DNA of 64,000 nt from Skeletonema tropicum (lineage: Eukaryota; Bacillariophyta; Thalassiosirophyceae; Thalassiosirales; Thalassiosiraceae), in the NCBI GenBank assembly GCA_037178625.1, contig CM074130.1:4650001-4714000 (forward strand), written 5' to 3'. Shown here in pieces: positions 43,857 through 45,152 of the stretch (position 1 is the first letter of the stretch; each line of letters begins with the position of its first letter). The translations under genes and the position numbers were made by a program. The notes below the pieces were generated by a model, which did no database searches, was not told the DNA's origin, and saw nothing but the letters and a program-made list of their open reading frames with translations.

Positions 43857-44415
43857 CAGTGGAATAGGTCGAACTGTCCCCCCCGGGGGGACAAAAATTT
43901 TGGCTAGCCTGAGATCCAGGGGGGGACAGTCCAAATCGACAACCCATCATTCCACATCGACAGCCACCTATGTACCTACCTCGTGCGTGAGCGGAACAGC
44001 ATCGCAATCGATGAGTACATGTCATGTGCGTGCTGTAGCTGCATCTTGTGCATAAACGAATTAGATGAATTTGGCTGAACTACTGCTCTCTCCCATCTTC
44101 ACCACCGGTAGAGCGGAGGCAAAAAAAATTAATTTCAACCATCGTGCAGGGAACAAGATATGTGCAAACAAAATGTATAGACAATGCTGTTTGCAACATG
44201 GAGCTCCCTGTACTGCTACTTCCCATAGGGAAGAGAAATAAGTTCTCGATAAGATACAATAATATGTACATGTTTTCACAATACATAGTTCCCATTAGGT
44301 ACCTACAAAGACCCCTACTGGGCCAGTGAGGGGGGGACAAAACTTCAGCACTAGGCTGAGATTTTGAGGGGGGGGACAGGCAAAGTTGGGGGGGACAGTT
44401 CGACCTATTCCACTG
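43857..44415. mobile_element. Tc1/mariner- or pogo-like MITE with G-run motifs
   Basis: The ends are CAGTGGAATAGGTCGAACTG (43857-43876), continuing into a C run, and the exact complement at 44396-44415. TA flanks both sides (43855-43856 and 44416-44417). A CAGTGG end with a TA duplication fits the Tc1/mariner/pogo group. Inside are six G-runs, each followed by ACA in one orientation. No transposase is present. It sits exactly at the TA bordering the palindromic element that starts at 44418, so it inserted next to or into that element's target site. Confidence 0.8.
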
Positions 44416-44417
44416 TA

Positions 44418-44779
44418 TCCCAACCATTTTGAAATCTCCTTTTGAAAGGAGATTTTCTGTTAGGCTCATAACCCCTTAGATCTGAAATCTCCTTTCAAAA
44501 GGAGATTTGCTACTCCGACTTGTTAGTGATGAAAGCTAGCGAGTAGAGTACAGCTCCTTTTGTGTTTTCCCCTCAAAAACCTGTAGCCCTTCTATGCAAT
44601 AATTGACCTAAAGGCCACACAAAGCGCTGATATTTAGCGAGAACATGTTACTTATTTGCACGAGGCCTACGAGTATATTTGAAATCTCCTTTCAAAAGGA
44701 GATTTGCCTCTCACGCAGAAACATACCAGAGCTCTACGTAAATCTCCTTTCAAAAGGAGATTTCAAAAAATGGTTGGGA
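44418..44779. mobile_element. palindrome-bearing TIR element, unit 1 (core TCCTTTCAAAAGGA)
   Basis: The ends are inverted: TCCCAACCATTTTG then a palindrome, and a palindrome then CAAAAAATGGTTGGGA. TA flanks both sides (44416-44417, 44780-44781). Four copies of a 24-bp palindrome, AAATC-core-GATTT, lie at 44432-44455, 44485-44508, 44682-44705 and 44740-44763. Copy 1 has the core inverted (TCCTTTTGAAAGGA) relative to copies 2-4. No ORF is present. Each palindrome could form a hairpin or bind a dimeric protein. Confidence 0.8.
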
Positions 44780-44781
44780 TA

Positions 44782-45152
44782 TTACCGATTTGCTGTTGGG
44801 CCCAGTACCCGTAGGGCTTGAAATCGGTACCTCGGTACCGATTTGCTACTCCGACTTGTTAGTGTCAAAGCTAGCGAGTAGAGTACAGCTCCTTTTGTGT
44901 TATTCCCTCAAAAAACAAGTAGCCCTTCTACGCAATAAAGTAACTAAAGGCCACACAAACGCCTTACTTTGTTCTCACATTTTGCACGAGGCCTACTGCC
45001 TATTTTGAAATCGGTACCGAGGTACCGATTTGCCTCTCACGTATAAGTAGAAACATACCAGAGTTCTACACAAATCGGTACCGAGGTAGGTAAATGTACT
45101 TTAAAATTTCTGTTACATAGAGGTAGGTACCGATTTCAAAAAATGGTTGGGA
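44782..45152. mobile_element. palindrome-bearing element, unit 2 (core GGTACCGAGGTACC), left end missing
   Basis: The backbone is the same as unit 1 (TTTGCTACTCCGACTTGTTA, GCACGAGGCCTAC, TTTGCCTCTCACG, and the right end CAAAAAATGGTTGGGA before TA). The palindromes have a different core: 44821-44844 (inverted core, GGTACCTCGGTACC), 45008-45031 and 45072-45136. The last is split by ~41 bp flanked by the direct repeat GAGGTAGGTA. The first palindrome survives only as TACCGATTT at 44783-44791, and the left inverted end is gone. Confidence 0.8.

Follow-up and report, generated by a model that had tools for sequence, protein, structure and literature searches.

How do all palindromes of one mobile element come to carry the same core, when a related element beside it carries a different one throughout? 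This question is raised by two abutting units in a 64,000-nt stretch of the Skeletonema tropicum genome (C4:4650001-4714000 in an assembly of 78.4 Mb and 125 contigs), hereafter called the window. Both units are MITEs from a large group of related MITE families. Below, the members of this group are compared with regard to their palindromes, their backbones and their target sites, and the possible origins of palindrome uniformity are weighed.

Two abutting MITEs of different families

The features of units 1 and 2 are as follows (window positions):

44418..44779 (+), unit 1, a complete class-A MITE of 362 bp with inverted tips, four palindromes and TA flanks
44419..44431 (+), left tip of unit 1, CCCAACCATTTTG, common to the aligned classes
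44432..44455, palindrome P1 of unit 1, arm AAATCTCCTT, centre TTGA
44485..44508, palindrome P2 of unit 1
44682..44705, palindrome P3 of unit 1
44706..44739 (+), P3-P4 spacer of unit 1, conserved across classes
44740..44763, palindrome P4 of unit 1
44764..44778 (+), right tip of unit 1, CAAAAAATGGTTGGG
44779..44782, single copy of the target ATAT separating units 1 and 2
44782..45152 (+), unit 2, a class-B MITE with a truncated left end
44782..44791 (+), remnant of P1 of unit 2 (part of the right arm), TTACCGATTT
44821..44844, palindrome P2 of unit 2, intact, arm AAATCGGTAC, centre CTCG
45008..45031, palindrome P3 of unit 2, intact
45032..45071 (+), P3-P4 spacer of unit 2
45072..45136, palindrome P4 of unit 2, split by a 37-bp insertion at 45089-45125
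45137..45151 (+), right tip of unit 2, CAAAAAATGGTTGGG

In unit 1, all four 24-bp palindromes are intact and read AAATCTCCTTT-TG/CA-AAAGGAGATTT with identical arms, as an earlier note on this DNA had claimed. The inverted tips are perfect over 13 bp, or 15 bp if the flanking TA is counted, and copies with 96% identity are present on C20. Unit 2 is 97% identical to C9:2254171-2254470. Its left tip and the left arm of P1 are missing. Four matching palindromes had been proposed here, too: The surviving sequence indeed contains the other arm only, but it comprises two intact palindromes, a split one (pieces 45072-45088 and 45126-45136) and a remnant. Most of the 37-bp insert in P4 is bordered on either side by GAGGTA.

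The right tips of both units are exactly alike (CAAAAAATGGTTGGGA). This part of the proposed common framework holds, but the backbones of classes A and B differ by 18% and each class forms its own clade, so that the two units are not close sisters. For this reason, the change of core belongs to family history, and a recent swap of cores between the two neighbours is ruled out. A tandem duplication is ruled out as well, as the classes differ and one ATAT is shared.

On the left, unit 1 is adjoined by a 559-bp element (43857-44415) with 28-bp perfect inverted tips (CAGTGGAATAGGTCGAACTGTCCCCCCC) and TA flanks, which looks like a Tc1/mariner-type MITE inserted at the TA next to unit 1. Near the units, a sulfate-permease-like protein is encoded. 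Among 7992 candidates scored, its closest named relative over the full length is from Cyclotella cryptica (54%), and metagenome proteins reach up to 92%.

Ten arm classes on a common plan

In the genome, 179 sites match the tip pattern (86 + 93), and none match its reversed control. Elements are built according to one plan: tips CCCAACC...GGTTGGG, two 24-bp palindromes at each end, usually at positions 15, 68, about 254 and about 312, and a conserved P3-P4 spacer. They have the features of MITEs, i.e. about 350 bp, non-coding, with inverted tips and in many copies. The layout of the units recurs in dozens of genome copies and, with 179 tips versus none in the control, is far beyond chance.

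Patterns for the terminal palindromes, which require each palindrome to start with AAA and finish with TTT, retrieved 74 left-type and 78 right-type ends. Two of these 152 were not classable and were dropped; the other 150 fall into ten classes of 10-nt arms:

arm class A, AAATCTCCTT
arm class A', AAATATCCTT
arm class B, AAATCGGTAC
arm class C, AAATCGGCAC
arm class D, AAAACGGCAC
arm class E, AAAACGGTAC
arm class F, AAAACGGCAG
arm class G, AAAACTGTAC
arm class H, AAAACGTTAC
arm class I, AAAACGGCAT

This list was drawn up after inspection of the data, and a two-armed variant tends to become a class of its own (e.g. I). Left and right ends facing each other within 4 kb belong to the same class in 43 of 44 pairs; when right ends were shuffled, 10.4 pairs agreed on average and 20 at most (10,000 trials). 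The sole discordant pair, C18:1665565-1667303, combines an I end with a D end. Four of originally 48 facing pairs were excluded, since they consist of two left or two right ends (one F/F pair alike, three different); they are taken for neighbouring elements or fragments.

Uniformity extends to the interior. From 54 extracted elements and fragments, one exact duplicate and 14 with fewer than three readable palindromes were removed. In 38 of the remaining 39, a single arm class was found; the exception, C6:2272828-2273744, has the arms I, D, I, I. Most elements were recovered by searches that included the palindromes, which may favour intact ones. The prediction of numerous core classes, with a single class inside each element, is thus borne out by ten classes, 38/39 uniform elements and 43/44 concordant pairs. 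Mixed cores, named beforehand as the refuting case, do exist but are rare (the two elements on C6 and C18).

The uniform part is smaller than originally described. For the palindromes AAATC-14nt-GATTT, uniform cores had been claimed; what is uniform within elements is the two 10-bp arms, while the 4-bp centre often varies. By raw count the centre is uniform in 21/39 elements. Class-A TTGA and TCAA are one centre on opposite strands, and after strand merging the number is 23/39. This leaves 16/39 elements with more than one centre, 3 of these 16 by single private changes. Centres run left-left-right-right in B, C, D2, E, F, G and I; in D1, and in A as judged from the printed sequences, the P2 centre is reversed. 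In most classes, the centres are pyrimidine-rich on a fixed strand at each end. The AAA/TTT anchors are also found in class consensuses obtained from similarity searches, except for A' P3 and G P1; a truncated copy distorts the G consensus in P1 and in the left tip.

At C3:4299568-4300262, a D1 element adjoins a D2 element (C3:4299921-4300262), tail to tail. The P3 centre of the D2 element is AAAA as in D1, not CGAG; local conversion between the neighbours is possible. A class-G end faces a class-A' end in the same manner at C12:104247-105386 and at C106:78435-80460, probably a duplicated composite of two elements. Two identical class-A elements lie 20 kb apart at C20:487516-487884 and 507414-507782, and each is accompanied about 1.4 kb away by the same hAT-like match. 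They probably result from a segmental duplication.

When the first T of the tip was not required, 86 tips were counted in the extracted loci, and ATAT precedes 77 of them; given xTAT, the expected share of ATAT is 35%. TA is present on both sides in 30/35 elements. An insertion can be written either as TA + TCCC...GGGA + TA or as ATAT + CCC...GGG + ATAT. Since both readings yield the same string, the length of the duplication (2 or 4) is inferred from strictness, and the strict outer bases favour the 4-bp reading. In the flanks of 35 elements, no 8-bp target duplication, the hallmark of hAT elements, was seen by eye. Six further tip-to-tip junctions GGGATATCCC occur in the extracted loci, which suggests that abutting units like 1 and 2 arise by insertion into the ATAT beside an older copy.

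The history of the backbones was traced on a tree of 46 sequences with masked palindromes (255 columns; no H, one sequence each for I and E1). Each of the classes A, A', B, C, F and G forms a clade. Two backbones with a difference of 0.336, D1 and D2, carry the D arm, and the E arm is found both on a branch beside D2 (E1) and on one outside G (E2). The single I sequence is nested within D1 and its backbone is 97% identical to D1. On the way from D1 to I, one position was altered in 6 of 8 half-sites; the changed palindromes are symmetric and P2 is unchanged. Apart from I, class backbones are 10-34% apart, and divergence within families is low (D1 mean 2.3%). Arm changes on the class tree amount to at least 13 steps in seven positions. 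Shuffled class labels need 17.4 steps on average and 13 or fewer in 3% of cases, so the arms track the backbone tree only loosely. The most radical change, A versus B or D1, affects five or six of eleven letters at a backbone difference of 18-22%. Arm positions 1-3 are constant across classes; 4 and 8 alternate between the same two bases, and all four combinations of them occur among B, C, D and E. The mean difference between class consensuses is 0.293 in the P2-P3 interior and 28% in the P1-P2 spacer, compared to 0.082 in the P3-P4 spacer and 2.5% in the right tip. The ends are, therefore, composed of conserved parts and one class-specific part, the arms.

Proposed dimer sites, possible copying and private variants

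Private arm substitutions number five, all one-armed and none two-armed, a count that is weakened by the post hoc class list. Two of them are located in element palindromes (C15:447309 P4, C17:1367737 P2) and three in terminal ends (C9, C10, C19). For the element palindromes, the raw number of one-armed deviations was 5 in 144, three of which represent one inherited change in A' P3. These numbers refer to substitutions; palindrome insertions and deletions were tallied in a separate list of non-consensus sites. Two or more such sites are present in 11 elements (truncations included), and in one of these elements the identical variant appears twice: In the class-B element C20:1754511-1754843, P1 and P4 both read AAATGGTACCGATTT, a 15-nt product of the same 9-nt deletion. 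The two deletions are the same on one strand and not mirror images of each other as the ends are.

Palindromes vary less than the backbone in D1 (4/1516, i.e. 0.26%, vs 48/4080, i.e. 1.18%), B (2/640 vs 26/1776) and A (1/364 vs 11/1034), whereas A' shows no contrast (16/529 vs 53/1557, counted on columns without gaps). Low palindrome variation fits both purifying selection before insertion and copying repair.

To explain these data, it is proposed that the palindromes are dimer sites of family-specific transposases working in a manner similar to the piggyBac superfamily, and that selection keeps the sites matched. The chances of this proposal are judged to be about even. MITE families would be moved by cut-and-paste into ATAT sites. 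Each palindrome would be a dyad-symmetric site for a transposase dimer, composed of two 10-bp half-sites and a free 4-bp spacer. A conserved part of the enzyme would read the tips and the P3-P4 spacer, and a DNA-binding domain differing between families would read the arms. As all eight half-sites must fit one protein, selection on mobile copies would keep them identical, and a lineage with a new specificity would found a new arm class. Judged from the sequences, the arms behave like a recognition code: They are two-fold symmetric, nearly uniform per element, free in the centre and anchored by AAA/TTT. Tips and P3-P4 spacer behave like a shared chassis. Since no cognate transposase was found in the long tip pairs examined, the mechanism is inferred.

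The proposal is in accordance with the ten arm classes, the 43/44 concordant end pairs and the 38/39 single-class elements, as well as with the five private arm substitutions that affect one arm each. Varied centres in 16/39 elements are predicted by a site with an uncontacted spacer and not by copying of whole palindromes. At least 13 arm steps have accumulated while the P3-P4 spacer differs by 8% and the right tip by 2.5%, and the low palindrome variation in D1, B and A and the ATAT at 77/86 tips agree with the proposal, too. The unsuccessful search for a cognate transposase and several other observations speak against it. A' lacks the contrast between palindromes and backbone, the target is ATAT and not TTAA, and the arm class does not simply follow descent (D on D1 and D2, E on E1 and E2). 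The 9-nt deletion shared by P1 and P4 of C20:1754511 is not explained by selection. Furthermore, a route by selection only through eight half-sites needs intermediates, and only two mixed elements have been seen. Among the three mechanisms put forward in the earlier note, co-evolution with a changed transposase is nevertheless the best fit, again at roughly balanced odds; gene conversion between the palindromes has gained some direct support from the C20 deletion without being preferred.

The main rival is concerted evolution by copying, a tentative alternative with an appreciable chance of being correct. Here, the arms within an element would template each other by gene conversion or by hairpin/template-switch repair in the course of replication or transposition: A mutation in one arm would spread, and the arm sequence would then drift neutrally or be sorted by selection. 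Identical arms within an element are expected from copying, and the step from D1 to I, with 6/8 half-sites changed on a 97% identical backbone, resembles an intermediate converted palindrome by palindrome. The same private deletion product AAATGGTACCGATTT at two sites of C20:1754511 gives weight to copying at the expense of selection. The D1-type P3 centre in the D2 element that abuts a D1 element (C3:4299921-4300262) and the low palindrome variation in three of four classes tested point in the same direction. However, more than one centre in 16/39 elements, exclusively one-armed private substitutions and the same variant twice in only 1 of 11 elements with at least two non-consensus sites (truncated ones included) speak against copying. 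In addition, the C20 deletions are not mirrored like the ends, and fixed positions 1-3 together with positions 4 and 8 flipping between two bases do not resemble free drift. In its strongest form, copying would be an internal rule: The half-sites of the four palindromes would template one another during transposition or repair, and a mutation would be rewritten everywhere. This is considered rather unlikely. If it were true, a ready-made new recognition specificity could arise in few steps, and new families could escape the old enzyme or titrating MITEs of the old family.

Two other explanations were weighed. The palindromes might act as single-strand hairpins with a 10-bp stem and a 4-nt loop recognised by a transposase or a host factor; the stems would have to be identical because a pairing or guide step depends on them, as in REP/RAYT or IS200/IS605. 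Symmetric arms, varying 4-nt centres (TTTT, TTCG, CTCG) that are pyrimidine-rich on a fixed strand in most classes, and REP palindromes that vary by lineage along with the RAYT enzyme (PMC2817692), agree with hairpins. This is improbable in view of the inverted tips and the duplication of the ATAT or TA target, which are marks of double-stranded cut-and-paste and not of HUH single-strand transposition. Alternatively, there might be no link at all between the palindromes of an element, the founders of young families having had identical palindromes by chance. Most classes are clades and divergence within families is low (D1 mean 2.3%), as expected in this case, but I arose within D1 by changes in 6/8 half-sites. 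Moreover, the founders are themselves related (10-34%), so that at least 13 changes would each have to be repeated at nearly all half-sites, which renders chance founders highly improbable.

Related systems and candidate partners

The tips of piggyBac begin with CCC. Its ends contain identical 19-bp palindromes bound by the C-terminal domains (CRDs) of the dimer, and the CRD of piggyBat reads a palindrome unrelated in sequence to that of piggyBac (PMC11707139). The diatom elements resemble this system in their strict 4-bp palindromic target, in a tip motif adjoining a palindrome and in identical palindromes repeated within the ends (here four per element, near the tips). As between piggyBac and piggyBat, relatives differ in the palindrome; there, the C-terminal domain differs as well (PMC11707139). 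In contrast to piggyBac, the target is ATAT instead of TTAA, and each end has two near-perfect 24-bp palindromes. By analogy, the diatom elements may be functionally piggyBac-like, with a core domain reading the tip and C-terminal domains reading the palindrome. Membership in the superfamily is not claimed because of the ATAT target and because no piggyBac transposase was found. As to diatoms, a transposase weakly related to piggyBac is reported in Phaeodactylum with a homolog in Thalassiosira (PMC2806351), and PiggyBac is listed among the superfamilies of Cyclotella cryptica (PMC7466962).

With MITEs of the TA-targeting Tc1/mariner/IS630 group, the elements share a size of about 350 bp, lack of coding capacity, inverted tips and a possible TA duplication. 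They differ in that ATAT at 77/86 tips is stricter than a TA duplication requires and in that the 13 genome matches to DDE_3 (PF13358, Tc1/IS630) lie outside the tip pairs known; for this comparison, 100 of the 179 tips were listed and supplemented by the palindrome-pattern ends.

REP/RAYT systems use a single-strand HUH mechanism. They are bacterial, and their REPs are short and without inverted cut-and-paste tips. They are similar in one respect: REP palindromes differ between lineages together with the cognate RAYT (PMC2817692), as the palindromes here differ between classes. By eye, no conserved head of the GTAG type was seen beside the diatom palindromes. The earlier statement that no element with such cores has been described was too strong, as piggyBac/piggyBat (PMC11707139) and REP/RAYT (PMC2817692) both have palindromes that differ between relatives along with the enzyme reading them. 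For a series of MITEs with palindrome classes, no description was found in the titles and abstracts retrieved from the open-access literature.

The families look alike, except that most possess a palindrome version of their own, as if each had its own lock for a different mobilising enzyme. How a transposase and its several end sites change specificity jointly is an open question for DNA transposons. Here, one genome contains at least ten related types of ends built on a common chassis as well as rare mixed elements resembling intermediates, so that this question can be tested directly on natural variants. The end-types could also serve as orthogonal transposon ends for genome engineering.

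The search for a partner covered the long elements. The coding inserts in the long A, B and G elements were rejected, as they belong to other transposons. Nested hAT-like inserts with 8-bp duplications were found in A (C12), B (C11) and G (C11:358052), in differing orientations relative to the host element. For the hAT-like protein, 150 genome matches were scored; among 20 loci (L070-L089), a tip pair surrounds it only at L070, which is the C11 element itself, and L071 and L089 each contain a single 8-mer resembling the tip but no palindrome with it. The 3.0-kb B element houses another transposon whose two ORFs match 110 and 119 genome sites, and the 3.2-kb A element on C15 is broken up by other inserts. 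In the long D1 element on C20 (1 kb of 2.8 read), the ORFs have no Pfam match above cut-off; the longer one matched no database protein, and the other has three weak relatives in the genome. In viral contigs, the tip pattern matched 50 stretches once each, and in no case did a palindrome follow.

The hAT-like inserts lie within three elements of different classes (C11:723548-724666, C12:2460297-2462000, L091), with 8-bp duplications that read, by eye, CTTTGTTC, CTGTAGCC and TACAGTTT. The insert in L091 sits at a palindrome edge, and a fourth hAT-like match is located inside the class-E pair C14:2409132-2411168. The nesting of hAT-like inserts in these elements may reflect a target preference.
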